Source of the DNA: Actinopolyspora saharensis
Lineage (GTDB): Bacteria > Actinomycetota > Actinomycetes > Mycobacteriales > Pseudonocardiaceae
DNA: 64,000 bases
Assembly (NCBI RefSeq): GCF_900100925.1
Contig: NZ_FNKO01000001.1
Span: 1,054,001 to 1,118,000 of the forward strand
Direction of reading: 5' to 3'
This document shows positions 38,187 through 63,372 of this stretch, one piece after another. A program made the position numbers and the translations under genes. Position 1 is the first letter of the stretch. Each line of letters opens with the position of its first letter. Under the pieces are notes generated by a model, which saw nothing but the letters and a program-made list of their open reading frames with translations, made no database searches and was not told the origin of the DNA.

Positions 38187-38292
38187 GTCGATCCCCTTCG
38201 CGCGTTGGTCCCGTGCGTTCTGCTGCGACCGTCGTAGCACCGAACGGGCTCGCGCGCTCGGGCAGTGATCGCGAACGGCCCGACCGGGAAGG

Positions 38293-44236: not shown

Positions 44237-44345
44237 GGGGATGCCTTTCGGTTCCGGGCCGTCTTGTGCTGGGGCTTCGCTGTCGGTTCTGTGAGCGAGG
44301 GGTGCTCGTCGGTGCTGCTGCGCTTCCCGGACGGAGAACTCCGGG

Positions 44346-44609
44346 TCACGTGTTCCGCGCCGCTCGCGCTGCGCGCGAGCACGCGGTGGCGGGCCTCGCC
44401 GGTGTCCGGGGGACCGGCGAGGCCGCCTGCGGTGGGGTCGTGGGGGCGTGCTCCCGCGTGTTGCGCGCCGAGCGGAGCACGGCCGGGTTCCCGGTTTCGG
44501 TGTCGTGGTGCCGGTCGCGCACGAACGCGGCTCCGAAGTCCTGACCGATGCCGCCTCCCCGGGACGAGGGACTGCTGGGGATCGCCTGGACGGCGTCTTC
44601 GTTCGGCAT
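44346..44609 (-). CDS. Possible 87-residue small protein (doubtful)
   Basis: ATG 44609 has GGAG about 9 nt upstream, and third codon positions are strongly GC-biased, as in real genes here. The product (M-P-N-E-D-A-V-Q-A-I start, Arg/Pro/Ala-rich end) is unlike anything recognised, and its 3' part coincides with strong hairpins. GC-rich DNA often gives such frames by chance. Low confidence. Confidence 0.15.
   Translation of the reverse strand: MPNEDAVQAIPSSPSSRGGGIGQDFGAAFVRDRHHDTETGNPAVLRSARNTREHAPTTPPQAASPVPRTPARPATACSRAARAARNT
44362..44424. other. Two adjacent hairpins in the rhaEW-lacI intergenic region
   Basis: GCTCGCGC/GCGCGAGC (44362-44380, loop TGC) and GGCCTCGCCGGT/ACCGGCGAGGCC (44392-44424, 9-nt loop). 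They lie 126-188 nt upstream of rhaEW, where no gene ends, so they may be leader structures. The rest of 44237-44685 shows no confident gene. Confidence 0.5.
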
Positions 44610-44685
44610 TGCCTGGGGCTCCGTTGCGGGGCGTGCGCGCTGTCGGACACGACGGCCACCGGCTTGCAGGGGACCGGCGAGTCGT

Positions 44686-46047: not shown

Positions 46048-46580
46048 TTGAATCGGTTTCACGAAGGCCGTGACGGTTCTTCGTGCCGATTTCTCCCCCG
46101 TGCTCGTTCGGTCGGGGGAAAACGGGATCGGAGAGGGCGCAGCATGACGTCGTCCGAGTCGCAGGTGACGAAGCGTTCGCGAGCAGCCGTTTCCGGGCGC
46201 TTCCGCGGGGAAGCGCCCGGCACTTCCCTCCTCGGCAGCGCGGCCGCGGGCTCTCGCGTGGTGGGGCCGGTGGGGCCGACTCCGCGGGAATTCGGCCGCG
46301 GGCGGCGTTGCCCACGTGATCGGGGCGTTCGGGACGGTGCCGGCTGCGTTCCCGGTCCTGCGGTCGCGCGGACGGCCGGTCCCGGAATTTTCGAACGCAT
46401 TCTGCCCGAAGAACCAGAGGACTCCGCGTGCGGAGCGGAAGTGCTTTCCCCGCCCGGGTGTATCCGGTTGCCGGTTTCGGCGGGTCTTCCGCCCGTTCCG
46501 AACCGCAGAACCGGAAATGAGCACGTCCGGCTGGAAAAAGCCGCGACGGTATTCGACGAGTCACTGTCCGGAGGCCACCC
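46048..46580. other. 530-nt leader region of the lyase gene, no confident gene
   Basis: A plus frame from ATG 46144 to 46590 has a ribosome-binding-like GAGAGGG but an unrecognised product and mixed codon use, so it is not called. The region may be a long untranslated leader or contain a degenerate gene. Confidence 0.35.
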
Positions 46581-49439: not shown

Positions 49440-49477
49440 GGATCAGTCGCGCCTCCGGGGATCAGTCGCGCCTCCGG
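49440..49477. repeat. Perfect 19-bp tandem duplication at the glxK stop
   Basis: GGATCAGTCGCGCCTCCGG occurs twice back to back (49440-49458, 49459-49477). The second copy carries the final codons R-R-D and the stop of the kinase gene; the first repeats the same end outside the gene. Confidence 0.9.
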
Positions 49478-50472
49478 TGGGCCAGGTGCTCGGCGAGGCT
49501 CTGCCGGACGCACTCGGTGGTGTTGGAAAAGGACTCGGCCCTGCCGAACTCCGCCGACAGGTCCCGGACCTCGATCCGCCCGCTCGCCGCGGGGTCCGCC
49601 GTTCCCACCACGGCGAGCACGTCCACGCCGCGCTCTTCGGCCGCGCGGGTGACCCCGCCGACCACCTTGCCGGTGAAGGACTCCGGGTCGAGCTTGCCCT
49701 CCCCGGTGACCACCAGATCGGCGGAGTCCAGGGCGGTGCCCAGCCCGAGCTCCTCGGCGATGGTCCCGAAACCGGACACCGGACGGGCGCCCAGCGCGGC
49801 GAGTCCACCGGCCAGTCCACCGGCCGCCCCGCTGCCGGCGAGGCCGGTCACGTCGACGCCGAAGCGGTCCCGGTAGTGCGCGGCGAGCCGCTCCAGCCGT
49901 TCGGTCAGCCGGGCACGCTGGAGCGCGTTCGCACCCTTCTGGGGGCCGAACACCGCGGCGGCCTCGGTGAAAACGGTGTCCACATCGCAGCACAGGAGCA
50001 CTTCGGGGTGGCCCGCTCGTCCGTCGAGCGGGGCGAAGTCCTCCAGCGCCTCGACGGCGCCGAGCCCCCCGTCCGTGGTGGCGGAACCACCCAGGCCGAC
50101 CAGGACCCGGCCGGCCCCGGCCCGCAGGGCCGCGGCGATCAGCTCGCCCGTTCCCCGGGTGGTGGCCTCCTCCGGAGCGTTGTGCTCGGGGCCTCCGGCC
50201 AGCGCCAGCCCCGAGGCGGTGGCCATCTCGACCACGGCGCGACCGTCGGTGGTCAACCGCCATCCCGCCGCCACGTTCCCGTGGAGCGGTCCGGTGACCG
50301 TGGTTCGGCGGTTCGCCCCGCCGAACGCCTCCAGCGTGCCCTCCCCGCCGTCGGCCATCGGCAGCTCGACGCACTCCGCGCCGCGCGCGGTGGCCGCGCT
50401 CGCGACAGCGGCGGCGACATCACGGGCACTCGCCGAGCCGCGGAACTTGTCCGGGGCGGCCACTACGCGCAT
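49462..50472 (-). CDS. glxK: Glycerate 2-kinase (GlxK/GarK family)
   Basis: A 336-residue type I glycerate kinase. It shows the N-terminal A-P-D-K-F-R-G-S-A-S-A substrate loop, A-D-G-G-E-G-T, G-L-G-G-S-A-T-T-D-G-G-L-G, and the C-terminal V-T-G-E-G-K-L-D-x-x-S-F-T-G-K-V motif. It converts D-glycerate to 2-phosphoglycerate for glycolysis. GGGAGGG precedes the ATG. It starts 28 nt after the isomerase gene in the DUF993 operon, suggesting that glycerate is the end product of that pathway. A 19-bp duplication spans its stop. Confidence 0.93.
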   Translation of the reverse strand: MRVVAAPDKFRGSASARDVAAAVASAATARGAECVELPMADGGEGTLEAFGGANRRTTVTGPLHGNVAAGWRLTTDGRAVVEMATASGLALAGGPEHNAPEEATTRGTGELIAAALRAGAGRVLVGLGGSATTDGGLGAVEALEDFAPLDGRAGHPEVLLCCDVDTVFTEAAAVFGPQKGANALQRARLTERLERLAAHYRDRFGVDVTGLAGSGAAGGLAGGLAALGARPVSGFGTIAEELGLGTALDSADLVVTGEGKLDPESFTGKVVGGVTRAAEERGVDVLAVVGTADPAASGRIEVRDLSAEFGRAESFSNTTECVRQSLAEHLAHRRRD

Positions 50473-50500
50473 CCGTGCTTCCCTCCCGGGAGTGTCGGGG

Positions 50501-51343
50501 TTACCGGGGATGTACCAAGCGGCGGTACCTGTCGACGGTCGTTTCCACGACCTCGCGGGCCGGTCGCGACCACACGTCCTCGTTGAAGATCTCGACCTCC
50601 ACGTCTCCGGAGTATCCGGTCCGGCGGACGGCGGTGTCGATCGGGGCGAAGTCGATGTGCCCGTCGCCCATCATGCCCCTGCCGAGCAGGACGTCGGCGG
50701 GCAGCGGGGTCAGCCAGTCGCACACCTGGTAGGAGGCGATGCGCGACCCGGCCCGTTCGATCTGCTCGAACAGGCGCGGGTCCCACCAGACGTGGAAGGT
50801 GTCGACCACGACTCCGACCTGTTCCACGGGGAACGGTTCGGCCAGCTCGAGGGCCTGGTCGAGGGTGGACAGCACGGCCCGGTCGGCGCAGTACATGGGG
50901 TGCAGCGGTTCGAGGGCCAGGCGCACGCCGTAGTGCTCGGCGAGGGGGGCCAGTTCCGCCAGCGCCTCGGCGACCCCGCGGCGTGCCGCCGCCAGGTCCT
51001 TCGAGCCCTCGGGGAGGCCGCCCACGACCAGCACCAGGCACGGGGCCTCGAGCTCGGCCGCCTCCTCGAGGGCCCGCCGGTTCTCCGCGATCGCCTCGCG
51101 GCGGCGCTCGGGGGTGTCGGCGGTGAGGAACCCGCCCCGGCACAGCGAGGAGACCCGCAACCCCGCCGATTTCACCAGGCGGGCTGCTTCGCGCACGCCG
51201 ACTTCGTGGACGGGCTCGCGCCAGAGCCCCACGGCGGGCACGCCCGCTGTCAGGCACTCGTCGACGACCTCGGGCAGCGAGCTGTTGTTCAGCGTCTTCT
51301 GGTTGAGGGAGAGGTCGGCGGGTGTGGTGTTTCCGTCGGTCAA
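50501..51343 (-). CDS. Sugar phosphate isomerase/epimerase (AP endonuclease 2-type TIM barrel)
   Basis: A 280-residue TIM-barrel protein of the xylose-isomerase-like superfamily. Metal-site style segments include L-A-L-E-P-L-H-P-M-Y (E and H), V-V-V-D-T-F-H-V-W-W-D (D and H), G-D-G-H-I-D-F (D and H) and V-E-V-E-I-F-N-E (E). Members isomerise or epimerise keto-sugars and inosose-type compounds. The TTG start overlaps the DUF993 stop as TTGA, so translation is coupled; alternative upstream starts lie within DUF993. Expected to act between the oxidoreductases and the aldolase of this cluster. Confidence 0.85.
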   Translation of the reverse strand: MTDGNTTPADLSLNQKTLNNSSLPEVVDECLTAGVPAVGLWREPVHEVGVREAARLVKSAGLRVSSLCRGGFLTADTPERRREAIAENRRALEEAAELEAPCLVLVVGGLPEGSKDLAAARRGVAEALAELAPLAEHYGVRLALEPLHPMYCADRAVLSTLDQALELAEPFPVEQVGVVVDTFHVWWDPRLFEQIERAGSRIASYQVCDWLTPLPADVLLGRGMMGDGHIDFAPIDTAVRRTGYSGDVEVEIFNEDVWSRPAREVVETTVDRYRRLVHPR

Positions 51344-52503
51344 CGAGGTACCCCCGCAACGTCGAGCAGTTGCCGCATTCGCGTCGCGGCCAGTTCCGGG
51401 TCGGGGAACAGGCCGGCCCGGTCGGCCAGCCGGAAGGTCTCGGCGAGGTGGGGGATGCTGCGTCCGCTCTGCAGCCCACCGACCATGGTGAAGCCGGGCT
51501 GGTGCCCGCTGAGCCACGACAGGAAGGCGATTCCGGTCTTGTAGTAGTAGGTGGGCGTGGAGAACAGGTGCCTGGCCAGCGGCACCGTCGGGACCAGCAC
51601 CTCGTCGAAGGTGGTCTCGTCCCCGTTGTCCAGCGCGCGCAGCGCGGCGGAGGCCGCGGGGGCGATCGCGGCGAACACCCCGAGCAGCGCGTCGCTGTGG
51701 CTCCCGCCCTCGCCCTTGATCAGGCGCGGGTAGTTGAAGTCGTCGCCGGTGTACAGGCGCACTCCCTCGGGAAGCCGGGAACGCAGCTGGATCTCGTGCT
51801 CGAGGTCCAGCAGCGAGACCTTGACCCCCTCGATCCGGTGGGCGTGCGCGTGCAGGATCTCCAGCAGCGTCTCGGTGGCCGCGGCGATGTCGGTCGAGCC
51901 CCAGTAGCCCTCCAGCGCGGGGTCGAAGGCCGGTCCGAGCCAGTGCAGGATCGCCGGGTGCTGCACCTCGGACAGCAGGCGGTCGTAGACCTTGTGGTAA
52001 TCGGCGGCGTCGCGAGCCCCGGCGGCGAGCTGCCTGCTCGCCATCAGGATCACCCGCGCGCCTGCCTGCTGGGTGACCTCGAGCTGCTCGGCGTAACCCG
52101 CGGTGATCTCGTCCGGATCGGTGACATCGGCGGGCAGGTGGTCCGTTCCGACGCCTGCCGCGACGCGTCCGCCGACCTCGGCGGCTTCGGCGGCGCTGCG
52201 GTGGATCAGCTCGCGGGTGGCGGCCCAGTCCAGTCCCATGCCGCGTTGTGCGGTGTCCATGGCCTCGGCGACTCCGAGGCCGTGGCTCCAGAGGTGCCTG
52301 CGGAAGGCCATCGTGGACTCCCAGTCGACCTCGGCGGGGGATCCCGGCGCGTTGGTGCCGCAGGGGTCGCCGACGACGTGGGCGGCCGCGTAGGCGACGC
52401 GGCTCTCGGGTGGGGTGGACTCGGTCAGGCGGGGGATCGGTTCGCTCATGCGGTGGGTGTTGAGCGAACCGTCCGCATCGGGCAGTTGGATGGTGTGCGA
52501 CAC
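51340..52503 (-). CDS. DUF993 dihydrodipicolinate synthase-like TIM-barrel protein
   Basis: A 387-residue protein of DUF993, predicted to share the class I aldolase/DHDPS fold. The opening T-I-Q-L-P-D-A-D-G and S-R-V-A-Y-A-A-A-H-V-V are family hallmarks. E-G-V-K-V-S-L-L provides a candidate Schiff-base lysine, and Y-T-G-D-D-F-N-Y a possible partner. No member is firmly assigned a reaction to my knowledge. GTG 52503 with GAGG 5 nt upstream is chosen; an ATG 54 nt inside would drop the conserved N-terminus. A LacI operator sits 18 nt upstream. First gene of an operon with an isomerase and glycerate kinase, consistent with an aldol-cleavage role. Confidence 0.85.
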   Translation of the reverse strand: MSHTIQLPDADGSLNTHRMSEPIPRLTESTPPESRVAYAAAHVVGDPCGTNAPGSPAEVDWESTMAFRRHLWSHGLGVAEAMDTAQRGMGLDWAATRELIHRSAAEAAEVGGRVAAGVGTDHLPADVTDPDEITAGYAEQLEVTQQAGARVILMASRQLAAGARDAADYHKVYDRLLSEVQHPAILHWLGPAFDPALEGYWGSTDIAAATETLLEILHAHAHRIEGVKVSLLDLEHEIQLRSRLPEGVRLYTGDDFNYPRLIKGEGGSHSDALLGVFAAIAPAASAALRALDNGDETTFDEVLVPTVPLARHLFSTPTYYYKTGIAFLSWLSGHQPGFTMVGGLQSGRSIPHLAETFRLADRAGLFPDPELAATRMRQLLDVAGVPR

Positions 52504-52520
52504 GGAAACCTCGAAAACGT

Positions 52521-52536
52521 CGGAAAGCGTTTTCCG
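52521..52536. promoter_or_regulatory. LacI-type operator CGGAAAGCGTTTTCCG
   Basis: A 16-bp palindrome with one mismatch near the centre, 18 nt upstream of the DUF993 start and within the region divergent to the second LacI gene. It resembles the site at 63123. Confidence 0.7.
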
Positions 52537-52792
52537 GAGCTTAGGTGGCAGGGTAGCGTGAACGCAAGAAAACAGCGGGAGCTTTCCCGGAGAGGTTCCC
52601 GCCGAGCAGGTAGCATCGGAGCGCTTCGAGTTGAGACGTCCAACAGGAATCCGTTCGGCTCGGGGCTGTGCGTCCCCCGAGCGGGGCGCGTGACTCCGGT
52701 GCTGGGGGCGGACGCCTTGCGGGCGTCGCTCCCACGGGCCGGGTAACCGGCCATCCGGACGGAGTTCTGCTACGAGTCCCCAGGGAGGACTG

Positions 52793-53824
52793 ATGCCGCG
52801 CGGTTCCGGCAAGGTGAATCTGGTCGACGTGGCGCGCCAGGCCGGTGTGTCGTTGGCGACCGCGTCGCGGGTTCTCAACGGAAGTACCCGCAGCGTCGGG
52901 ACCGACCTGCGGGAACGCGTCCGGCAGGCCGCGGCCAGACTGGACTACTCGCCGAGTGCGCCCGCACAGGCCATGGCCCGGGGCGGAACGGACGTCGTGG
53001 GTCTGGTGGTTCCCGACATCGCCGATCCGTACTTCTCGACGATCGCCGCCAGCATCGTCCGCACCGCCGAACCCCACGGTCTGATCATCAACCTGTCCAC
53101 GACCGAGCGTCGCTTCGAGCGCGAGGCCGAGTACGTGGCCTCGCTGCGCAGGCAGCAGGCGCGCGGCATCGTCCTCGTCGGCAGCAGAACCACCAACCAC
53201 GAGGACCTGGAGTCGTTGCGCGCGGAGGTCGAGGCCTACACGGCCGCGGGCGGGCGGGCCGCCGCCATCGGACAGCACAAGCTGCCCGCCGACACGGTGG
53301 TGGTGGAGAACCGCGCCGGGGCGAGCGCGCTGGCCGAGAAGCTCGTGGAGCTGGGCTATCGCGAGTTCGCGGTCCTGGCCGGCCCCACCGACCTGATCAC
53401 GGCGCGGGACAGGCTGGCCGGATTCCGGCAGGGGCTGCGCGATAGGGGGATCGAGCTGCCGCGCCGGAACGTGCTCAACGGTGCTTTCACCCGGGACGGG
53501 GGCCACGCGGCGGCCCAGGAGCTGCTCGACCGGGGCGGCGGTGTGGAGTGCGTGTTCGCGGTCAACGACGTCATGGCGGTGGGCGCCCTGTCCGCGTTCC
53601 GCGAGCGGGGGGTGCGCCTGCCCGAGGAGCTGGCCGTGGCCGGTTTCGACGACATCGCCAGTCTGCGGGACGTGTGGCCCTCGTTGACGACGGTGCGCAT
53701 TCCGCTGGAACGCCTCGGGGAGGAGGCGCTCGGTTTCCTGCTCGACGAGCCCGCCGACCGGGCGAGGGTGCGTCGTTTCCGGGGAGAGGTGGTCGTGCGG
53801 GCCAGCACGCCGGGGATCGGCTGA
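52793..53824 (+). CDS. LacI-family regulator (second)
   Basis: A 343-residue repressor with an N-terminal helix-turn-helix (V-N-L-V-D-V-A-R-Q-A-G-V, recognition helix S-L-A-T-A-S-R-V-L-N) and a sugar-binding domain (V-V-G-L-V-V-P-D-I-A-D-P-Y-F). GGGAGG is 6 nt upstream of the ATG. Its recognition helix differs from that of the first LacI protein, consistent with a different operator. The GGAAAGCGyTTTCC-like sites before the DUF993 operon (divergent, 257 nt away) and before the Gfo/Idh-ABC operon are its likely targets. The inducer is presumably the sugar acid or ketosugar handled by those genes. Confidence 0.88.
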   Translation: MPRGSGKVNLVDVARQAGVSLATASRVLNGSTRSVGTDLRERVRQAAARLDYSPSAPAQAMARGGTDVVGLVVPDIADPYFSTIAASIVRTAEPHGLIINLSTTERRFEREAEYVASLRRQQARGIVLVGSRTTNHEDLESLRAEVEAYTAAGGRAAAIGQHKLPADTVVVENRAGASALAEKLVELGYREFAVLAGPTDLITARDRLAGFRQGLRDRGIELPRRNVLNGAFTRDGGHAAAQELLDRGGGVECVFAVNDVMAVGALSAFRERGVRLPEELAVAGFDDIASLRDVWPSLTTVRIPLERLGEEALGFLLDEPADRARVRRFRGEVVVRASTPGIG

Positions 53825-53935
53825 GCGCCGGGCCGTCTCGGCGCGGCGCGCGCAGGACCGCCGTGGAGCGGGGCTGCCGTCCGGTGGGCGTCGTCTCGGC
53901 TTCCGGGCCGCAGCCCCTCCGCGGTGCCGTCGGGA

Positions 53936-55030
53936 TCAGCTCACCAGCCTTTCTCCGCTTCCGGCGTCGAACAGGTGGATCTCGTCGAGATCGCGCACGG
54001 CCACGTTCACGGTCTCGCCCGGTGTGGGCGGCTTGCGGCCGTCCCCGCGGATGATCAGCGGGTCCTTGTGCGCACCCGAGACCGTCCGACCGTGTATCAG
54101 GCAGTCAGCCCCCAGCTCCTCGACGAGTTCCACCTGCAGCGGCAGGCTGTTCTCCGCGGAGGAGACCAGGTGCAGCGACTCGGGGCGGATGCCGATGGTG
54201 ATCTCGGAGTCGTCGGACGGTCCGGAGGTCGCCGAGCGGGGAACCGGGATGGAGACCTCGTCCAGTTCCGCTCCTTCCGGGGTCAGCGGCACCGTGCGGA
54301 GGTTCATCGCGGGCGAGCCGATGAACCCGGCCACGAAGGAGTTGGCCGGGCGTTCGTAGAGCTCCCGCGGGGTTTCGCACTGCTGCAGGACCCCGTCGGC
54401 GAGGACGGCGACCCGGTGTCCCATGGTCATGGCTTCCACCTGGTCGTGGGTGACGTAGATGGTCGTGGTGCCGAGCCGACGTTGCAGCGAGGCGATGTTG
54501 GCCCGGGTCTCCACCCGCAGTTTGGCGTCCAGGTTGGACAGGGGCTCGTCCATGAGGAACACCGACGGTTCGCGGACGATGGCGCGCCCCATGGCCACGC
54601 GTTGGCGCTGTCCCCCGGACAGCGCTTTCGGCTTGCGGTCGAGGTAGCCGGTCAGGTCCAGCAGTTCGGCCGCCTCCTCCACCCGGCGCCGCACCTCCTG
54701 CTTGGGAATGCGGCGCAGTTTCAGGGCGAAGCCCATGTTCTCGGCCACGGTCATGTGGGGGTACAGCGCGTAGGACTGGAACACCATCGCGATGTCCCTG
54801 GACTTCGGCGGCATCGTGGTCACGTCCACGTCACCGATCCGCACGCCGCCCTCGTCGATCTCCTCCAGCCCGGCGAGCATGCGCAGCGCGGTCGACTTGC
54901 CCGAGCCGGAGGGGCCGACCAGAACCAGGAACTCCCCGTCCTCGACCGTCAGGTCCAGACCGTCGACCGCGCGGACGGGTGGGGTCCCGCCGAAAACCCG
55001 CGCGGCCTTGTTGTACGCGACCTGTGCCAT
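53936..55030 (-). CDS. Sugar ABC transporter ATPase, MsmK/UgpC/MsiK type
   Basis: A 364-residue ATPase of the CUT1 importer family. It shows Walker A G-P-S-G-S-G-K-S-T, signature L-S-G-G-Q-R-Q-R, Walker B V-F-L-M-D-E-P, Y-V-T-H-D-Q switch, and a C-terminal regulatory domain with I-G-I-R-P-E-S-L. Such ATPases energise several sugar permeases at once. The upstream operon encodes a binding protein and two permeases but no ATPase, so this protein is the likely partner. It has its own leader after a 14-bp terminator hairpin, allowing constitutive or shared use as for MsiK of Streptomyces. Confidence 0.92.
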   Translation of the reverse strand: MAQVAYNKAARVFGGTPPVRAVDGLDLTVEDGEFLVLVGPSGSGKSTALRMLAGLEEIDEGGVRIGDVDVTTMPPKSRDIAMVFQSYALYPHMTVAENMGFALKLRRIPKQEVRRRVEEAAELLDLTGYLDRKPKALSGGQRQRVAMGRAIVREPSVFLMDEPLSNLDAKLRVETRANIASLQRRLGTTTIYVTHDQVEAMTMGHRVAVLADGVLQQCETPRELYERPANSFVAGFIGSPAMNLRTVPLTPEGAELDEVSIPVPRSATSGPSDDSEITIGIRPESLHLVSSAENSLPLQVELVEELGADCLIHGRTVSGAHKDPLIIRGDGRKPPTPGETVNVAVRDLDEIHLFDAGSGERLVS

Positions 55031-55104
55031 CGTTCCTCCTTCTGAGGTTTTTGCCGTTCGTTCAGTTGTTCGAGGTCGGTCTCCTGCTGCGCTGCCGGCC
55101 TCGA

Positions 55105-55141
55105 GCGGCCCCCGGGCGGGTGGTGCTCGCCCGGGGGCCGC
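55105..55141. terminator. 14-bp hairpin between Gfo/Idh and ATPase genes
   Basis: GCGGCCCCCGGGCG pairs perfectly with its complement (9-nt loop), 39 nt past the Gfo/Idh stop on the minus strand. Confidence 0.75.
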
Positions 55142-55179
55142 CGAGTGATCCCCCTGGCGATCGGGTCAACGAGCGCCGG

Positions 55180-56331
55180 TCACCTGTCGATGCGTTCCAG
55201 CGGGATCCGCTGTCCACTCGCGGAGGAACGCAGCCCGGCTTCGGCGAGCTGGATCCCCCTGGCTCCGGCGAAGAAGTCGTAGCGGTGCTTCGTCCCGCCG
55301 ACCACGTCCCGCAGGAACTGCTCCCACTGGGCCTTGAACCCGTTGTCGAACTCCGCGTTGTCGGGAACCTCGGACCACTGGTCGCGGAAGGGCTCGGTGA
55401 CGGGCTGATCCGGGTTCCACACCGGTTTCGGGGTCATGGTGCGGTGCTGCAACCTGCACCCGCGCAATCCGGCCACCGCGCTTCCCTCGGTGCCGTCGAC
55501 CTGGAACTCGACCAGTTCGTCGCGGTTGACCCGCACCGCCCACGAGGAGTTGATCTGGGCTATCGCCCCGTCTTCGAGCTCGAAGATTCCGTAGGCCGCG
55601 TCATCGGCGGTGGCCTCGTAGGGCCGGCCCTGCTCGTCCCAGCGCCGGGGGACGTGCGTGGTGGCCTTGGCCGTGACCGAATCGACCCGCCCGAACAGGT
55701 TCTCCAGCACGTAGTGCCAGTGGCAGAACATGTCGGACACGATCCCGCCGCCGTCCTCGGAGCGGTAGTTCCAGCTGGGGCGTTGGGCGGACTGCCAGTC
55801 CCCTTCGAAGACCCAGTATCCGAACTCGCCTCGCACGGACAGCACGCGACCGAAGAATCCGCCTTCCAGCAGGCGGTGCAGCTTCAGCAGACCGGGCAGG
55901 AACAGCTTGTCGTGCACCACGCCGTGGCACACTCCGGCGCCCTCGGCCAGCCGGGCCAGTTCGAGGGCCTGTTCCGCGGTTTCCGAGACCGGTTTTTCGG
56001 AGTAGACGTGCTTGCCCGCTTCCACGGCCGAGCGAATCGCCTTCTGCCGGGCCGCGGTGATCTGGGAGTCGAAGTACACGTCCACGGAATCGTCGGAGAG
56101 CACGGTGTCCGGTTCCGTGCTCCACTCGGAGATGTCGTGCCGGCGCGCTATTTCCGCGAGCTTCTCGGGCCTGCGGCCGATCAGCACGGGTTCCACGGTC
56201 ACCCGGTCGCCCCCGGCGGTTTCGACGCCTCCCTGATCCCGGATGGCCAGCACGGACCTGAGCAGGTGCTGGCGGTACCCCATTCGTCCCGTGACTCCGT
56301 TGAGCGCGATGCGCAGCGTTTTCGTGGTCAT
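55180..56331 (-). CDS. Gfo/Idh/MocA-family oxidoreductase (first)
   Basis: A 383-residue NAD(P)-dependent dehydrogenase. The N-terminal Rossmann fold begins I-A-L-N-G-V-T-G-R-M-G-Y, a divergent cofactor loop, and the hallmark S-E-K-P-V follows at about residue 111. A C-terminal alpha/beta dimer domain has H-D-K-L-F-L-P-G and D-M-F-C-H-W-H-Y, likely the active-site region. It probably oxidises or reduces a sugar, inositol or sugar-acid hydroxyl. ATG 56331 with GAGG upstream; it trails the DUF624 gene by 142 nt and may be co-transcribed with the ABC operon or have its own promoter. Confidence 0.85.
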   Translation of the reverse strand: MTTKTLRIALNGVTGRMGYRQHLLRSVLAIRDQGGVETAGGDRVTVEPVLIGRRPEKLAEIARRHDISEWSTEPDTVLSDDSVDVYFDSQITAARQKAIRSAVEAGKHVYSEKPVSETAEQALELARLAEGAGVCHGVVHDKLFLPGLLKLHRLLEGGFFGRVLSVRGEFGYWVFEGDWQSAQRPSWNYRSEDGGGIVSDMFCHWHYVLENLFGRVDSVTAKATTHVPRRWDEQGRPYEATADDAAYGIFELEDGAIAQINSSWAVRVNRDELVEFQVDGTEGSAVAGLRGCRLQHRTMTPKPVWNPDQPVTEPFRDQWSEVPDNAEFDNGFKAQWEQFLRDVVGGTKHRYDFFAGARGIQLAEAGLRSSASGQRIPLERIDR

Positions 56332-56473
56332 GCGAACAGTGCCTCGATTTCGACAGTGCTGTTTCTCGGTCGGGACTCCCGCGCGGCGAAGCGCGTTCGC
56401 ACGCAGGGGAGTCCGGCGTGCTTTTCGGTTTTTCCGCGCCCGGTTCACCCGGAGCGGGAACTCGTGCTGCGGC

Positions 56474-57109
56474 TCAACCCGGTGAGCTCTCCGAGCCACG
56501 GCGGGGTCTGCGCTCCTCGACGGCCGCGGCGGCCAGGCTGAGCGGGCCCAGGATCAGCACTGCCAGCACGGGCAGCATCCACACGCACAGGGCGGACACG
56601 GCCACGGCCCCGAACAGCAGCAGGCTGCCGACGGGGTCGGTGGCGGTGGTGCGGGAGGCCGTGGTCAGCGCCGCGCGCCAGTCGTGCTCGGACTCGGGCA
56701 GGGCCACGGCGCGCAGTCCGATCGGAACCAGTGCCAACGCCACGAGCAGGAGAATCACCGTGACGAATTCCTGCCCGGGGAAACCGTTGCTCGTGCGCGT
56801 CAGCAACAGGTCGAGCGCCAGCAGTGCTCCCGTGCTCAGCGCGAGCACTCCCGCGGTGAGGTCGGGCAGGGCTCGTTCGCCGCGCAGTCTCCGGAGGAAC
56901 TGGCGCGCGTACCCGAGCCCTCCGGGACCACGCCCTCCCCGGGACCGCTCCCGCAGTTGCCCGCAGGCCGTGGAGACCGCGGCGGGGGCGGTGACCACGG
57001 GCAGCGAGGCCAGCGTGGTGGCCACCCCGATGCCCAGCATGTCGGCGAACAGTTCGAAGCTCGGTCCGAACGGGCCGCGGTGTTCCTTCGGCTGTGATGT
57101 GGCGGTCAT
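56474..57109 (-). CDS. DUF624 (YesL-like) membrane protein
   Basis: A 211-residue protein with about five membrane helices. The opening pattern F-E-L-F-A-D-M-L-G-I-G-V-A-T-T-L-A-S-L-P and T-A-P-A-A-V-S-T-A resembles DUF624, whose members (YesL of B. subtilis) sit in operons with sugar ABC importers for rhamnogalacturonan or other plant oligosaccharides. Function unknown, perhaps transporter-associated. It starts 9 nt after the permease stop, so it belongs to the transporter operon. Confidence 0.75.
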   Translation of the reverse strand: MTATSQPKEHRGPFGPSFELFADMLGIGVATTLASLPVVTAPAAVSTACGQLRERSRGGRGPGGLGYARQFLRRLRGERALPDLTAGVLALSTGALLALDLLLTRTSNGFPGQEFVTVILLLVALALVPIGLRAVALPESEHDWRAALTTASRTTATDPVGSLLLFGAVAVSALCVWMLPVLAVLILGPLSLAAAAVEERRPRRGSESSPG

Positions 57110-57118
57110 CGAAAGAGC

Positions 57119-57985
57119 TCACCCCTTCACGCCGGAACTGGCCATGCCCTGGACGAGGAATCGTTGGAAGGCCATGAAGAACAGCACGATGGGCAGCAGG
57201 GCGATCACCGACATGGCGAACATCGGACCGTAGGCCGACTGGCTGGATGTGTCCACGAAGGACCGCAGTGCCAGGGTGATGGTGAACTTCTCCGGCTCGA
57301 ACAGGTAGATCAGCTGCAGGAAGAAGTCGTTCCACGTCCAGATGAAGGTGAAGATGGCCGTGGTGATCAGCGCGGGCCTGCTCAGCGGCAGGATGATCCG
57401 GAAGAACGTGCGGAAGGGGCCGCACCCGTCGAGCGTGGCGGCCTCGTCGAGCTCCTTGGGGATCCCGCGCATGAACTGGACGGTCAGGAAGACGAAGAAC
57501 GCGTCGGTGGCGAGGAACTTCGGCAGGACCAGTGGCCAGAAGGTGTTCACCAGCCCGAGCTGGTTGAACACGATGTACTGGGGGATCAGTATCGCGTGCT
57601 GCGGGAGCATGATCGTGGCCAGCATCAGCGCGAACAGCGGTCCCCGCAGCGTGAAGCGCAGGCGGGCGAACGCGTAGGCGGCCAGGGAGCAGCTGAGCAC
57701 GTTGCCCAGCACGGAACCGACGGAGATGATCAGCGAGTTGCCGATCAGCCTGAGGACGCTGACCCCGCCGACGCCCTCCAGGGCCGTGGCGTAGTTGCCC
57801 AGCTCGAGCCTGCTCGGCAGCAGGCGCAGGCTCGAGATCACCTCGTCGGCGGGTTTGAACGAGGTCGCGATCAGCCAGGCCAGCGGGTAGAGCATGACCA
57901 GCAGGACGGCCAGGCAGCCGACGTGCAGTCCGATGCGGCCCCAGTCGGGTCCGCGACCGGTGATAGATCCTCTGACGGCTACCAT
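57119..57985 (-). CDS. Sugar ABC transporter permease 2 (MalG type)
   Basis: A 288-residue permease with six helices and the cytoplasmic EAA loop E-A-A-T-L-D-G-C-G-P-F (about residues 188-198) that docks to the ATPase. CUT1 family, homologous to MalG. ATG 57985 is 2 nt after the stop of permease 1 and follows AGGGG; a GTG two codons earlier is possible. Works with permease 1, the lipoprotein and an MsiK-like ATPase to import an oligosaccharide or sugar derivative. Confidence 0.92.
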   Translation of the reverse strand: MVAVRGSITGRGPDWGRIGLHVGCLAVLLVMLYPLAWLIATSFKPADEVISSLRLLPSRLELGNYATALEGVGGVSVLRLIGNSLIISVGSVLGNVLSCSLAAYAFARLRFTLRGPLFALMLATIMLPQHAILIPQYIVFNQLGLVNTFWPLVLPKFLATDAFFVFLTVQFMRGIPKELDEAATLDGCGPFRTFFRIILPLSRPALITTAIFTFIWTWNDFFLQLIYLFEPEKFTITLALRSFVDTSSQSAYGPMFAMSVIALLPIVLFFMAFQRFLVQGMASSGVKG

Positions 57986-57987
57986 CG

Positions 57988-58965
57988 TCACCCCTTATCG
58001 TTGTAGAAGACCCAGGAGCGTGAACTGCGGAAGAGCAGCGCGGTCACGATGCCGATGACCACGAGCAGCACCCAGGCCATCGCCGAGGCGTATCCCATGT
58101 GCGATGCGGTGAATCCCCGGTCGTACAGGTAGAGTGTGTAGAACAGCGTCGAGTCCGCGGGGCCACCGCGGCCCCCGCTGACGGTGAAGGCGGGCGTGAA
58201 GACCTGGAAGGCCTGGATGGTCTGCAGCACCAGGTTGAAGAACAGCACCGGCGAGAGCATCGGCAGGGTCACCGCGCGGAAGCGCCGCAACCGTCCGGCA
58301 CCGTCCACTTCGGCCGCTTCGTACAGCTCGCCCGGGATCTGCTGCAGCCCCGCGAGGAAGATGACCATGGGGGCGCCGAACTGCCAGATCGTCAGCAGGG
58401 CCACCACCAGCAGGGCCCAGCCCGGCTGGTTGACCCAGCCGCCCATGTTCACCCCGAACGAGGACAGCAGGTCGTCCACGGTGCCGCCGTCGTTGAACAG
58501 GGCGCGCCAGACCAGCGCGATGCTCATGCTCGCGCCGAGCAGCGAGGGGGCGTAGAAGGCCGAGCGGTAGAAGCCCTTGCCGCGTCCGATGGAGTTCAGC
58601 GCCAGGGCCGCGGCCAACGCGGCCGCGAGTTGCAGTGGCACGGCCACCACCACGTACACCAGGGTGTTCACCGCCGACCGCCAGTAGCGGGGATCCTCGG
58701 TGAACATGCGCACGTAGTTGTCCAGGCCCACCCACTCCGGGGCGGTGAACAGGTCGTACTTGGTGAACGACAGGTACAGCGAGGCCAGCATCGGGGTCAG
58801 CGTCAGCACCGCGGCCCCGAGCAGCCACGGTGAGAGGAAGACCCAGGCGGCGCCCTCGCGGTTTCGCTTCCGCCGCGTTGCCTGCTCTTCTCGGGGCGCA
58901 CCCGCTGGTTGTTCGATCCCCCGGGGCGTGCTCGGCTTCTTCTGGTCAGGGGCTTCGACGTTCAT
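57988..58965 (-). CDS. Sugar ABC transporter permease 1 (MalF type)
   Basis: A 325-residue permease with a hydrophilic 38-residue N-terminus, six helices and the EAA motif E-A-A-E-V-D-G-A-G-R-L. F-L-S-P-W-L-L-G at the first helix is typical of CUT1 MalF-like subunits. Its ATG overlaps the binding-protein stop by 4 bp, so subunits are translated together. Confidence 0.93.
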   Translation of the reverse strand: MNVEAPDQKKPSTPRGIEQPAGAPREEQATRRKRNREGAAWVFLSPWLLGAAVLTLTPMLASLYLSFTKYDLFTAPEWVGLDNYVRMFTEDPRYWRSAVNTLVYVVVAVPLQLAAALAAALALNSIGRGKGFYRSAFYAPSLLGASMSIALVWRALFNDGGTVDDLLSSFGVNMGGWVNQPGWALLVVALLTIWQFGAPMVIFLAGLQQIPGELYEAAEVDGAGRLRRFRAVTLPMLSPVLFFNLVLQTIQAFQVFTPAFTVSGGRGGPADSTLFYTLYLYDRGFTASHMGYASAMAWVLLVVIGIVTALLFRSSRSWVFYNDKG

Positions 58966-60272
58966 TGCTGCAACTCCGATCTCACGCTGGTGAGGAACTG
59001 CTCGGCCATCCGCCGCGGCGATCGGAGTTCGAAGCCCACGTGGTCGTAGTCGCGTTGGAAGGTCGTCTGCAGCGCGAGGTCACCGGCGGGGGGAGCGCTC
59101 GGCGGGTCGAGCAGTTTGCCCTCGAGACGCTGCTGGAAGTCGGCGATCCGCTTGTCCAGGCCGCTCAGGGAGGGGGTGATGTCGTCACGGATGTCCTGGT
59201 TGACCGGCATTCCGCGGCTCACCCCGAGAACGTCGCCCGCGGCCGGATCGTTGATCAGGAAGTCCACGAGCTGGGATGCTTCCTCCGGGTGGGGGCTGTT
59301 GGAGGAGACGCCGACGAGCATCGAGGGCTTAAAGTACTGCCCCGGTGTGCCGTCCGGACCGGAGGGCAACGGGGCGAGCCGCAGGCTGTCACCGATCAGG
59401 GCCTGGAAGCCGCCGACGGCGGAGTCCCAGGTGATGCCGGAGGCGGCGTTGCCGCGGCCGAACGGCATGTTCGCCGCCGAGCCGTCTATCTGCGTCGTCT
59501 GGCGAGCCGGGCTGACCGCGCCCTGCTGGCTGAGCCCGTTGGTGAAGCTCCAGAACTTGGCGAGATCGCTCTCGGTGAAGCCGAGCTCACCGCTGTCGGT
59601 GTAGAGGCTCTTGCCCCTGCCGCGCAGCCACACCTCGAACCAGTCCTCGCTCCATCCCGGATCGGTGGAGCCGGCCTGGTCGGTGTTCTCGTTGAGCTTG
59701 CGCATGGCCGCGCTCCAGTCCTGCCACGTCCAGTCGAAACGCGGTTCGGACACGCCGGCGCGCTGCCACGCGGCGGAGTCGTAGACCAGCACCTGCGAGG
59801 TGCGCCCCATCGGGATCGCGTACTGCGTTCCGCGGACCTGTCCGGTGCGCAGCATGCCCGAGTCCACCTCCTCGGTGCTCACCTCGGGGCGGTCCCCGAG
59901 CGGGAGCAGCAGCCCGGAGGAGGCGTACTGGCTGATCTGCCGGTAGTCCAGCTGCATCACGTCGGGGGCGTTGCCCCCGGCGGCCTGGGTGGCCAGCTTC
60001 TGGATGTAGGAGTTGTAGCTGGAGAACGAGGTCTGCACCTCGATGTTCGGGTGGCGCTGCTCGAAGAGGTCGACGGCCTCGTTGGTGGCGGCGGCCCTGT
60101 CGGCGTTGCCCCACCAGCTGAACTGCAACTCGACCTTGCCGCCGGTGGATCCGCTCGTCCCCGCGCCGCAGCCCGCCAGCAGGCCGCACAGCGTCAGCAC
60201 CGCGAAGGTCAGCGCCGAGACCTTGAGCCCGGTGCGGGGCGGAGTCGGTGACTTCTGGGGCTTGTCCGGCAT
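58962..60272 (-). CDS. Extracellular sugar-binding lipoprotein
   Basis: A 436-residue solute-binding protein. The signal peptide has a lipobox L-L-A-G-C near residues 31-35, after which the mature protein starts with a Cys anchor and a Gly/Ser linker. The body has the CUT1 binding-protein layout (L-Q-F-S-W-W-G, A-P-D-V-M-Q-L-D). It captures the sugar for the two permeases. GGAGG precedes the ATG, and the start overlaps the cupin stop by 1 nt (TGATG). Confidence 0.92.
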   Translation of the reverse strand: MPDKPQKSPTPPRTGLKVSALTFAVLTLCGLLAGCGAGTSGSTGGKVELQFSWWGNADRAAATNEAVDLFEQRHPNIEVQTSFSSYNSYIQKLATQAAGGNAPDVMQLDYRQISQYASSGLLLPLGDRPEVSTEEVDSGMLRTGQVRGTQYAIPMGRTSQVLVYDSAAWQRAGVSEPRFDWTWQDWSAAMRKLNENTDQAGSTDPGWSEDWFEVWLRGRGKSLYTDSGELGFTESDLAKFWSFTNGLSQQGAVSPARQTTQIDGSAANMPFGRGNAASGITWDSAVGGFQALIGDSLRLAPLPSGPDGTPGQYFKPSMLVGVSSNSPHPEEASQLVDFLINDPAAGDVLGVSRGMPVNQDIRDDITPSLSGLDKRIADFQQRLEGKLLDPPSAPPAGDLALQTTFQRDYDHVGFELRSPRRMAEQFLTSVRSELQQ

Positions 60273-61024
60273 CACTCGCCTCCGTAGGGAAGGGTCGCAC
60301 CGGGGATCTCGTACTCGTCGCGCAGCCCGCACACGCCGTAGCCGTCCCGTCGTGACGGGTGGGCCAGGCAGACCTCGGAGCTCTCCAGGTCGGCGGGATC
60401 GCCCTCGGCCAGGCGGTCCAGGCGGGCACCGGTGTGCTCGGCGGCGGCCAGCGCGCCGTGCCGCCACAGCTTCCTCCAGTGGTCCACCTTGGGCGCCACC
60501 AGTCGCGCGGCCGCCCGGAGGAACTCGCGCAGCGGCCCGGCATCGTCCGCGCGCAGCGCCTCGCGCAGGGTCAGGTACCCGGACACGGCCAGGTCCCTGC
60601 GTCGCTGGGCGGCGGCTCGTTTCTCCTGCTCGTCGGCCTGGCGCGGGATGCTCGCGGCGGCGGCGTAGGAGTCCGGGTCGGCGAGCACCTCGGGCGGGAA
60701 GGTGAACACCGCGTCGCCTGCCTCGGGCAGGCCGCTGTTCTGCATCAGCACCGTGACCCGCAGGTCCTCGTGCTGCACCATCCGGTGCACCGTGCCGGGG
60801 GCGAACCAGGCCACGGCACCGGGCTCGAGCTCGTGCTCGCGGTATCCATCCGTGCTCAGCGTCTGCACCGCACCGCGGCCGTGGGTGACCACGTAGGCCT
60901 CGGTGCAGGCCAGGTGCACGTGCGGGCTACCACCGGCGAGTCCGTCCTCGGTCGGCCAGTCGTAGGAACGCACGTGTGAGAGCCCGATCGATCCCGGGAG
61001 GGAAGGGCCGGGGGATTCGGTCAT
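60272..61024 (-). CDS. Cupin-domain protein of the sugar operon
   Basis: A 250-residue protein. The N-terminal half is a cupin with H-V-H-L-A-x-T-E-A-Y-V-V (metal-ligand-like H35, H37, E42) and P-G-T-V-H-R-M (H80). The C-terminal half is helical with no recognised domain (two A-A-x-R-R segments, then C-L-A-H). It could be a sugar-sensing or isomerase-type cupin; no DNA-binding helix is seen. It is 9 nt after the PmoA-like gene and overlaps the binding-protein gene, so it clearly belongs to the operon. Confidence 0.75.
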   Translation of the reverse strand: MTESPGPSLPGSIGLSHVRSYDWPTEDGLAGGSPHVHLACTEAYVVTHGRGAVQTLSTDGYREHELEPGAVAWFAPGTVHRMVQHEDLRVTVLMQNSGLPEAGDAVFTFPPEVLADPDSYAAAASIPRQADEQEKRAAAQRRRDLAVSGYLTLREALRADDAGPLREFLRAAARLVAPKVDHWRKLWRHGALAAAEHTGARLDRLAEGDPADLESSEVCLAHPSRRDGYGVCGLRDEYEIPGATLPYGGE

Positions 61025-61033
61025 GACGGTCTC

Positions 61034-61951
61034 CTACCAGGGATGTTCGTCGAGAGTCCTGTCGATTCGTTCGTGGTCCAGCGCGCCGTCGGCGATCAGG
61101 ATTCGGTAGGTGTACTCGAAGCTCTCCCCGGCGGGGAGTTCGAATTCCTCGAAGAAGGCCCAGGAGATCGCCACGGCCGGTGTGGGGTCCGAACGCACGA
61201 ACCAGTGCGATTCGTGCACGGACTCGGCGTTGCTCGGACCGTGCTCGAACACGACGGTGGAGTGGCCGTCGACTTCGTCGTGCTCGCCCGTGAAGGCCAG
61301 CCAGCGCCCCTGCGCACCCATCATCGCGTCGGCCCCGGTGGCGCCCGGCCCGCGCACCGTGCCGCCGGTGAACTCCCGCGGGCCGCGCCAGTGCAGCCCC
61401 GTGTAGCCGGCCATCTCGCGGCCCTCGGTCGTGGGGCTGCCGAAGCGCAGCGGCTCGGCGCAGGTGTTGGTCAACCGGATGGACCAGTCCAGCGCCCAGG
61501 TGCCGTTGGCCGGGTTCACGGAGTGCGCGCGCAGCCCGCGCCGCTCGAAGGCCCACGGGTCGCCGCCGTTGTTCAGCCAGCGCAGGTTCTCGACGAAGCG
61601 CAGTTCGTCCGGGTCCACGTCGAAGGTCTCGAAACCCTCGTGGCGCATGGAGCCGACCCGCTCGGGCAGAGCGAGATAGCCCTCACCGCGCACGTAGGTG
61701 TTCCCGCCCCAGAAGTTCTGCCCGGACACGTGGCTGGCGGTCATCTGCAGCCCCTTGTGCCAGCGGTGGTCGTTGGGCCGGTAGCCGGTCACCGCGTTGC
61801 CGGCGAGGGTGCGCAGGGGGTGCAGGTAGGGTTTCCTGGACTCGAACTCGACCGGATCCGGTTTGTACACGTAGGTCATGAGCTCGGTGTGCTCGGATTC
61901 GACGGTGATGCTCTCGCCGTGCCGGTGCGTCACCGTGATGGGATGACTCAT
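61034..61951 (-). CDS. PmoA-like (DUF6807) protein
   Basis: A 305-residue beta-rich protein matching the DUF6807/PmoA-like family in segments such as K-P-Y-L-H-P-L, N-D-H-R-W-H-K-G-L (His/Asp/His cluster), W-G-G-N-T-Y, and H-S-V-N-P-A-N-G near the centre. The family frequently neighbours Gfo/Idh oxidoreductases and may act on sugar derivatives such as 3-keto compounds. Despite its name it is not a methane mono-oxygenase subunit. ATG overlaps the upstream Gfo/Idh stop by 4 bp. Confidence 0.8.
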   Translation of the reverse strand: MSHPITVTHRHGESITVESEHTELMTYVYKPDPVEFESRKPYLHPLRTLAGNAVTGYRPNDHRWHKGLQMTASHVSGQNFWGGNTYVRGEGYLALPERVGSMRHEGFETFDVDPDELRFVENLRWLNNGGDPWAFERRGLRAHSVNPANGTWALDWSIRLTNTCAEPLRFGSPTTEGREMAGYTGLHWRGPREFTGGTVRGPGATGADAMMGAQGRWLAFTGEHDEVDGHSTVVFEHGPSNAESVHESHWFVRSDPTPAVAISWAFFEEFELPAGESFEYTYRILIADGALDHERIDRTLDEHPW

Positions 61952-63069
61952 GTGGTGCTCGCCTTTCCCCGTCGAGTCAGTTTCTCCGGGTGTCCGCCGT
62001 GGATCACCGTGTAGTGGGGGTCGTCCGGGTCGATCTCCGTGGCGGAGACCGCGCGGCCGGTGGCCGCCGATTTGTAGAGCGCGGTGAGCAGTTCGAGCAC
62101 GCGGCGTCCGTCCCGCCCGCTGCAGGGGGGTCGCTTTCCCGCGCGCATCGCGGTGACCAGCTCGCGCAGCATCCAGCGGTGCGAGCTCGGTTCGTCGCGT
62201 TCGGGGGTGCGCCAGCGGGCGATCCGCTCCTGGTCGGTGACGTGCGGGGCCGGGGTGTAGTGCCAGTTCTCGTTGCCGTGCCCGTAGAGGTGGATCAGGT
62301 CGAGCGTGGCCTCCGAGCAGTCCAGGCGGATCCGGCTGGACTCGTCCGGGGAGAGCACGCTGTTGACGATGGTGGCCAGCGCCCCGGAGGAGAACCGCAC
62401 CAGCGCGGTGGAGACGTCCTCGGTGTCGATGTCGTGCTGCAGGCGTCCGGTCATGGCCTGCACTTCCGTCCACGGCCCGAGCAGGTGCAGCAGCAGGTCG
62501 ATCTGGTGGATGCCGTGTCCCATCGCCGGGCCACCGCCTTCGGTCTCCCACTTGCCGCGCCAGGGCACGGAGAAGTACCGGGAGTCGCGGTACCAGGTGG
62601 TCTGGCAGTGCGCGACCAGCGGAGTGCCGAGTTCACCGCTGGACAGCAGCGTGCTCGCGTGCTCGGCTCCCGAGCCGAAGCGCTGTTGGAAGACGAAGGA
62701 GGCGTAGGGCCCGTTCGTGCCTTCCGCGTCGACCATCTCGTCGTAGCCGGCCAGGGAGAGGCAGGGAGGTTTCTCGCACCACACCCAGGCGCCGGCCCGC
62801 AACGCCTGCTTGACCTGTTCCACGTGGAGGGCGGGCGGGGTGCACACGGACACGAGATCCGGTTTCTCGGTGTTGAGCATCTCGTGCAGGTCGGTGTAGC
62901 CCCGCATCGTCGGGTTCCCCGCGCGGAAGGTCTCCAGGCGCGCCGGGTCGACGTCGACCGCGGCGACGAGGTCGATCTCGTCGTGTTCGGACAGTGCGGA
63001 CAGGTGGTGTGTCGCCACGGCGCCGGTTCCGATGACGGCGGCGCGGAGGCGAGTGTTCGCGGGGGACGT
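61948..63069 (-). CDS. Gfo/Idh/MocA-family oxidoreductase (second), apparent ACG start
   Basis: A 373-residue NAD(P)-dependent oxidoreductase. The Rossmann motif is V-I-G-T-G-A-V-A-T-H-H (about residues 12-22), then C-E-K-P-P for the usual E-K-P, and G-G-G-P-A-M-G-H-G-I-H-Q-I-D, the conserved catalytic H-x-x-D region. The frame has no ATG/GTG/TTG between the motif and a TTG at 63210, which would place a LacI operator inside the gene and add an Arg-rich 47-residue tail. ACG at 63069 has AGAGGAG ending 6 nt upstream and yields a normal N-terminus. First gene of the long sugar operon. Confidence 0.8.
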   Translation of the reverse strand, partial: TSPANTRLRAAVIGTGAVATHHLSALSEHDEIDLVAAVDVDPARLETFRAGNPTMRGYTDLHEMLNTEKPDLVSVCTPPALHVEQVKQALRAGAWVWCEKPPCLSLAGYDEMVDAEGTNGPYASFVFQQRFGSGAEHASTLLSSGELGTPLVAHCQTTWYRDSRYFSVPWRGKWETEGGGPAMGHGIHQIDLLLHLLGPWTEVQAMTGRLQHDIDTEDVSTALVRFSSGALATIVNSVLSPDESSRIRLDCSEATLDLIHLYGHGNENWHYTPAPHVTDQERIARWRTPERDEPSSHRWMLRELVTAMRAGKRPPCSGRDGRRVLELLTALYKSAATGRAVSATEIDPDDPHYTVIHGGHPEKLTRRGKASTT

Positions 63070-63122
63070 GGCTTTCTCCTCTCGTGTGCGTCGAGACGCC
63101 CTTCGCCTCGAACGAAACGTTG

Positions 63123-63134
63123 GAAAGCGCTTTC
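63123..63134. promoter_or_regulatory. LacI-type operator GAAAGCGCTTTC
   Basis: Perfect 12-bp palindrome, 53 nt upstream of the ACG start. It resembles the DUF993 operator, pointing to common control by the second LacI protein. The remainder of 63135-63372 shows no gene. Confidence 0.7.
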
Positions 63135-63372
63135 TCGTGCGGGAGACATTAACCCGCTTGTAACGCTCGCCACAAGAGGAGTTCGCGGGTTGCTTCGCGC
63201 TCGGGAGCAAGTGCTCGGCAGCGCTTCGGGGTCGTGCTGGTGAGCGGGTCGGTGGGCAGCGGTGGCCCGCTCCGGTGCCGCGCCGGTGTTTCCACCCGGA
63301 TAAGGCGCGGTTGCGGTGGGGTTTCCCGGAGAGAACGCGGGATGCGGAGATCGTTCGCCGCGGAGGGGGAGG

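Follow-up and report, generated by a model that had tools for sequence, protein, structure and literature searches.

The stretch analysed here, referred to as the window, comprises 64,000 nucleotides (C1:1054001-1118000) of Actinopolyspora saharensis, whose genome assembly has 4.68 Mb in two contigs. It carries the genome's one copy of DUF993, whose best named match is a protein of Actinopolyspora biskrensis (88%), among genes that a preliminary description, made from the letters alone, had assigned to an uncharacterised route of sugar or sugar-acid catabolism. The genes named there, from 49462 to about 63087, and both LacI-type operators were recovered at their places by Pfam matches and an operator scan. 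A plus-strand LacI gene lies between two minus-strand operons, the short DUF993 operon and a long one, whose boundaries were deduced from strand and overlap in the sequence only. In the list below, hub denotes GFO1, DUF993 and ISO, and peripheral module denotes GFO2, DUF6807, the cupin and the importer.

49462-50472, minus strand: glycerate kinase (GlyK), at the end of the DUF993 operon; PF02595, 265 bits
50501-51343, minus strand: ISO, TIM-barrel isomerase/epimerase-like protein, hub; PF01261 (Xylose isomerase-like TIM barrel), 140 bits; TTG start
51340-52503, minus strand: DUF993, DHDPS-fold protein, hub; PF06187, 601 bits, 382/382 positions; 4dnh
52522-52535, no strand: LacI-type operator GGAAAGCGTTTTCC, DUF993 operon, 18 bp upstream of the DUF993 start; best site genome-wide
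52793-53824, plus strand: LacI-family regulator; PF00356, PF13377
53936-55030, minus strand: ABC importer ATPase, MalK/MsmK-like; PF00005, PF17912, PF08402
55180-56331, minus strand: GFO1, Gfo/Idh/MocA oxidoreductase, hub; PF22725, PF02894, PF01408; solved relative 3oqb, E 1.4e-147
56474-57109, minus strand: small membrane protein with weak resemblance to MusI; NF052431, 44 bits, below cut-off (160)
57119-57991, minus strand: ABC importer permease B; PF00528
57988-58965, minus strand: ABC importer permease A; PF00528
58962-60275, minus strand: ABC importer solute-binding protein; PF01547; start at 60275 or 60272
60272-61024, minus strand: cupin, peripheral module; weak Cupin_2 match, under the Pfam cut-off
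61034-61951, minus strand: DUF6807 ('PmoA-like') beta-sandwich, peripheral module; PF14100, 271 bits; structure model and fold matches
61948-63069, minus strand: GFO2, Gfo/Idh oxidoreductase, peripheral module; PF22725, PF01408, PF02894; start uncertain, ACG at 63069 being one candidate
63122-63135, no strand: LacI-type operator GGAAAGCGCTTTCT, long operon, before GFO2

The short operon reads DUF993-ISO-GlyK, and the long operon reads GFO2-DUF6807-cupin-binding protein-permeases-weakly MusI-like protein-GFO1-ABC ATPase. DUF993 and ISO overlap by 4 bp, as do GFO2 and DUF6807. The start of GFO2 is uncertain because the minus strand holds no ATG, GTG or TTG from the operator to the Rossmann motif (63033-63210). 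The ACG at 63069 is preceded by AGGAGAAAGCC and may be the start codon of GFO2; alternatively, the gene may extend over the operator.

Both operons have a near-identical palindromic operator directly upstream, as had been described, and no other window site comes within one mismatch of GGAAAGCGNTTTCC. With three mismatches allowed, the window holds 38 matches, with palindromes scored on both strands, versus a mean of 12.45 and a maximum of 25 in 100 shuffles. The operator is also conserved in relatives. Among the 92 of 100 given loci that had a GFO1 match and sufficient upstream sequence, 83 carry a site within 500 bp upstream of GFO1 at no more than one mismatch to GAAARCGYTTTC, versus 94 of 1840 random windows from the same loci. 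Across the genome, ten distinct places match the operator at up to one mismatch. Besides the two in the window, one lies by a PL3 pectate lyase gene, one by a GDSL hydrolase gene, and one between a LacI gene and a GH28 gene, close to a TRAP transporter; for the other five, the genes that contain or adjoin them have no visible link. A two-mismatch site starts 19 bp ahead of a second PL3 gene. For the first PL3 gene and the GDSL gene, the open frame as called begins before the site, and we take the true gene starts to be downstream of it. A role of the GDSL hydrolase in pectin use is a guess, and some of the genomic sites may belong to paralogous LacI proteins.

GFO1, DUF993 and ISO form a nearly invariant unit. 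In the best 80 of at least 591 DUF993-containing stretches, the three genes are contiguous, in this order, in 78; of the two exceptions, one has a gap of 2 kb (L025) and the other lacks both partners (L031). The co-occurrence of the families, whose absence in other genomes was from the outset to count against a common pathway, is far beyond chance in a survey of 296 Actinomycetes genomes from 115 genera, with p values that ignore descent. DUF993 is present in 88 of these genomes, GFO1 in 89 and both in 87; DUF993 is single-copy in 87 of the 88. ISO occurs in 56 genomes of a 197-genome draw, and the sole one without DUF993 has a partial match. This fragment (G016:C24:10359-10964) covers residues 83-274 in a genome with no GFO1 or DUF993 hits, and may be what is left of a lost hub or stem from the assembly. 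GlyK, by comparison, is an occasional hub partner only. It had been counted as a member of the pathway and does lie in the DUF993 operon here, but it is found near the hub in just 6 of the 80 relatives and, among the 14 plasmid loci with annotation, in seven (L112, L115, L116, L117, L118, L125 and L127).

These plasmid loci belong to a sample of 17 (14 annotated, 3 without annotation, gene tables incomplete) from Alpha-, Beta- and Gammaproteobacteria and actinobacteria, drawn from the 147 plasmid records on which DUF993 was found. A Gfo/Idh gene stands beside or within the DUF993 cluster in six of the 14 annotated loci (L111, L112, L115, L116, L126 and L123, the last labelled just 'oxidoreductase'). 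At the same place L113 has a ThiF-type gene, and L114, L117, L118, L119 and L127 have a gene annotated as '3-ketoacyl-ACP reductase'. In L117, L118 and L127 (Paracoccus, Sinorhizobium), DUF993 and the isomerase gene share one gene run with those for acyl-CoA dehydrogenase, CoA transferase, enoyl-CoA hydratase and glycerate kinase, followed by electron-transfer-flavoprotein genes, which may be read as other feeder chemistry on the same pair. On a plasmid of Streptomyces sp. NBC_00557 (L120, 9007-19188), DUF993 immediately precedes a type I polyketide synthase gene. Genes for a malonyltransferase and an SDR are close by, no hub partner is annotated, and the family may have a biosynthetic use there. 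In L013, L027, L048 and other Streptomyces loci, a ribose-type cluster (ribokinase-like protein, fused permease/binding protein, ATPase and LacI, judged from translations alone) follows soon after the hub, at about 12-19 kb.

The peripheral module is nested within the set of hub genomes. DUF6807 occurs in 64 of the 296 genomes and the cupin in 48, and every one of them has GFO1; DUF993 is held by 62 of the 64 DUF6807 genomes (exceptions G200 and G209). At the genus level, all 24 DUF6807 genera fall inside the 32 hub genera. With the weakest twelve DUF6807 places left out, the cupin match starts less than 1.5 kb from the DUF6807 match at 34 of 54 places, in 33 genomes. A profile made from both Gfo/Idh proteins of the window plus four from searched regions finds a Gfo/Idh gene no more than 400 bp from DUF6807 in 17 of 20 fetched regions (exceptions L168, L181 and L186). 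The distance between DUF6807 and DUF993 is at most 30 kb in 17 genomes, this one included, and in many others the peripheral module is far from the hub. In L183, for example, 2.5 Mb from the hub of its genome, GFO2, DUF6807, the binding protein and a permease are 62, 67, 58 and 80% identical to those of the window. Two to four DUF6807 places are found in 31 of the 64 genomes while DUF993 is nearly always single, a pattern of one hub with several feeders. Thus, where a single pathway of all parts had been described, the linkage of the families stands, but there are two modules rather than one flat pathway: the constant partners of DUF993 are GFO1 and ISO, and GFO2, DUF6807 and the cupin are separate from them. 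In the window the hub is split, with GFO1 in the long operon and not adjoining DUF993 as it does in relatives; one regulon therefore carries both modules.

The structure model of DUF993 agrees with the aldolase-type fold that had been described. It is a TIM barrel of the DHDPS fold, whose nearest structure, 4dnh, is a 'hypothetical protein', and its identity to DHDPS and N-acetylneuraminate lyase (NAL) structures (e.g., 3flu and 7lvl) is 13-18% in the listed rows. The candidate Schiff-base lysine also holds: Lys228, in the sixth strand (224-230), is at the Schiff-base place, as judged from motif and fold without residue-level superposition, and is Lys in 143 of 143 aligned rows (as for ISO below, the rows include the window's own copy). 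In the DHDPS/NAL superfamily a catalytic tyrosine ends the fifth strand. DUF993 instead has His187 there, invariant in all 143 rows and aligned, in a local alignment, with Tyr133 of a KdgD-like set (A4). Because His replaces Tyr, we claim the fold and a lysine-type mechanism, and not a DHDPS, NAL or KDG aldolase. Compared with the superfamily, DUF993 has about 34 additional N-terminal residues (the alignment begins at 35), and by eye it reads D-T-A-Q-R at 83-87 where A4 reads G-T-G-E. A profile alignment to the KdgD-like set covered just 55 columns and was rejected. That DUF993 is a class I type lyase forming a Schiff base on Lys228 is proposed with moderate confidence, jointly with the whole pathway given below.

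The solved relatives of ISO are 7vpf, 3ju2 and 3qc0. Its residues E145, D181 and E251 are invariant in 136 of 136 rows. Residue 206, a putative metal-ligand place, is Gln in 123 rows and His in 13. DUF6807 is modelled as a beta-sandwich of 305 residues, of the mutarotase/PL26 type, with a fold match to chain residues 128-501 of 5xqg. It is not a PL26 lyase, as it has no profile or sequence link to that family and lacks the three-domain build (beta-sandwich plus alpha/alpha toroid). Its database name, after the PmoA methane monooxygenase, was likewise rejected, since PF14100 is the sole match and the model is a beta-sandwich.

The neighbourhood of the DUF993 operon may point to pectin. Beside it stands a PL26 homologue of full length, for which a weak site resembling the operator (three mismatches) lies at 46436-46449, and rhamnose genes lie to its left.

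46581-49325, plus strand: PL26-type exo-rhamnogalacturonan lyase; PF19501, PF21345, PF21346; PcRGLX 5xq3, E 7.5e-170
42188-44659, minus strand: RhaEW-type rhamnulose-1-phosphate aldolase/dehydrogenase; NF006188, 1296 bits, over cut-off
40512-42014, minus strand: rhamnulokinase-like FGGY kinase; TIGR02627, 464 bits, under the cut-off of 528

Further left are a formamidase gene (36936-38240, minus strand; NF045496, 652 bits) and a gene whose product has a weak beta-helix match (38346-39572, minus strand). A GH88/GH105 enzyme was rejected as the missing hydrolase, since PF07470 has no match genome-wide, with B. subtilis and two more controls positive; no PL11 rhamnogalacturonan lyase was found in the genome. 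We rated low the possibility that the hub replaces KduI and KduD, as both have counterparts in the genome: KduI itself scores 393 bits, above its cut-off, and a KduD-like gene reaches 347 bits against a cut-off of 369.

Among the 296 genomes, 41 have PL11; 35 of these have DUF6807, 37 have GFO1 and 7 have GH88/105, the last at chance level (p 0.63). Within the 89 GFO1 genomes, 35 have both PL11 and DUF6807, 2 have PL11 only, 29 have DUF6807 only and 23 have neither (p 3.5e-5). That 34 of the 41 PL11 genomes have no GH88/105 raises the question of how rhamnogalacturonan breakdown is completed in them. In L179, the hub is separated from GFO2/DUF6807 by PL11 and GH42 genes, and in L180, a locus of another family, members of these PL11/GH42 clusters stand alongside GFO2, DUF6807 and GFO1. 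Other DUF6807 regions have GH51-, GH43- and GH3-type genes, and L168 pairs DUF6807 with a KDG-kinase-like gene and a KDPG-aldolase-family gene. Because these neighbours vary, DUF6807 paralogues may serve several plant-wall oligosaccharides. In the 20 fetched regions, an enolase-superfamily gene cluster recurs in nine and a KdgD-like cluster in six, with one member of each identified.

From the observed gene content, operators, contiguity, co-occurrence, model folds and invariant residues, we infer a substrate, an order of steps, the reactions and glycerate as a product. In the pathway that we favour, with moderate confidence, one regulon directs two catabolic modules, and oxidation-assisted cleavage of pectin disaccharides feeds a Schiff-base aldolase hub. 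The importer would take up a pectin-derived oligosaccharide, most likely a product of rhamnogalacturonan-I lyase. GFO2 would turn one hydroxyl group on the terminal sugar into a ketone by oxidation, DUF6807 would cut the glycosidic bond thus activated, and the cupin would work on the product of DUF6807. GFO1 would then oxidise or reduce the keto-sugar or its acid, and ISO would isomerise it. DUF993 would form a Schiff base on Lys228 and split the molecule by a retro-aldol reaction into small, probably three-carbon, pieces, one of which would yield glycerate for phosphorylation by GlyK. For oxidation-first cleavage there is precedent: as excerpted here, the accounts of the levoglucosan enzymes LgdA/B1/B2/C (PMC7676230) and of Agrobacterium AtOGE/AtHYD (PMC10628242) have the sugar oxidised before the glycoside is cleaved and glucose freed.

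There are three alternatives. The hub might degrade an acid sugar unrelated to pectin and, in Actinopolyspora, simply have come under a pectin-type regulator. GFO1 would then oxidise an aldonate-like acid, DUF993 would split the 2-keto acid into hydroxypyruvate (or pyruvate) and an aldehyde, ISO would act like a hydroxypyruvate isomerase and GlyK would act on glycerate. In keeping with this, 25 of the 89 hub genomes have no DUF6807, TTT and MFS transporters stand beside proteobacterial hubs, GlyK is present in half of the annotated plasmid loci, and ISO scores weakly, far below cut-off, against IolO (57 bits) and against hydroxypyruvate isomerase (37 bits). It leaves unexplained, however, why every DUF6807 and every cupin genome has GFO1, and we regard it as less likely. 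Less probable still is that the co-occurrence reflects lifestyle, in that large soil actinomycete genomes gather sugar modules, so that the regulator here would be common to the modules and the intermediates would not. The GH88/105 control, present in 42 genomes, is also associated with DUF993 (22/42, p 9e-4) and DUF6807 (19/42, p 2e-4), more weakly but not absent, the p values ignore descent, and the modules are unlinked in many genomes; against this, DUF6807 and the cupin are completely nested and the control is not, the two families lie close together in 17 genomes, and one operator is common to both window operons. Finally, deglycosylation by oxidation, elimination, hydration and reduction (GFO2 oxidising, ISO as eliminase or hydratase, GFO1 reducing, free sugar released and DUF993 not an aldolase on this sugar) would suit a regulon that, like the excerpted levoglucosan and AtOGE systems (PMC7676230, PMC10628242), combines two Gfo/Idh proteins with one isomerase-fold protein, but is improbable, since GFO1 and ISO are tied to DUF993, not to GFO2, and occur without GFO2 and DUF6807.

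Extending the favoured pathway, we tentatively suggest that in Actinomycetes the rhamnogalacturonan-lyase disaccharide is as a rule opened oxidoreductively, by GFO2 and by DUF6807 as a new glycoside-cleaving class, and not by GH105, and that the oxidised sugar is split by DUF993, a Lys-dependent lyase with His in place of Tyr. If true, functions would be assigned to two unknown families together and the missing step of pectin use would be named. Searches of the open literature by locus tag, PDB code and pathway found no description of a matching pathway, the pathway searches yielding known systems at most. DUF993 is unnamed in the 5.39 million open papers covered (subscription papers being outside the search), and DUF6807 is given no function, appearing in one of them, in the excerpted part of PMC10971088, as a bare Pfam number. 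The Sinorhizobium genes SMc04132 and SMc04133 are listed in an excerpted table of PhaR-responsive genes (PMC12542648). Both families are thus large ones without a functional paper in that literature (at least 7996 homologues scored for DUF993 and 1909 for DUF6807), and the nesting of DUF6807 and the cupin in the hub set offers a concrete, testable pathway for both.

In kind, the proposed system would belong with oxidoreductive routes of sugar catabolism that use a lyase of the class I type, and would be more than that if DUF6807 is a new glycoside-cleaving enzyme. The non-phosphorylative Entner-Doudoroff pathway combines a DHDPS-fold aldolase with glycerate kinase, as the window operons would. 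Unlike that pathway, the two operons hold no sugar-acid dehydratase family by Pfam, and they have an additional isomerase and Gfo/Idh proteins. The window resembles RhiN-type rhamnogalacturonan catabolism and the LacI-type RhaR regulons of Actinomycetales, as excerpted from PMC3870299, in its rhamnogalacturonan lyase, rhamnulokinase-like and RhaEW-type genes and LacI regulator; it differs from the RhiN route, which uses an unsaturated galacturonyl hydrolase, in having two oxidoreductases, DUF6807 and the cupin in a genome without GH88/GH105. Deglycosylation systems of the oxidation, elimination, hydration and reduction kind have an oxidising and a reducing Gfo/Idh protein in one cluster and an isomerase-fold eliminase and hydratase; here the long operon has two Gfo/Idh proteins, which may act in either direction, and the two operons have one isomerase-fold protein and, in DUF6807, a beta-sandwich. 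The window shares with the levoglucosan and AtOGE systems (PMC7676230, PMC10628242) the use of Gfo/Idh oxidoreductases with isomerase-fold partners. Unlike those systems, among whose parts, as described in the excerpts, DUF993, DUF6807 and the cupin do not figure, here a second, lysine-type hub would follow.

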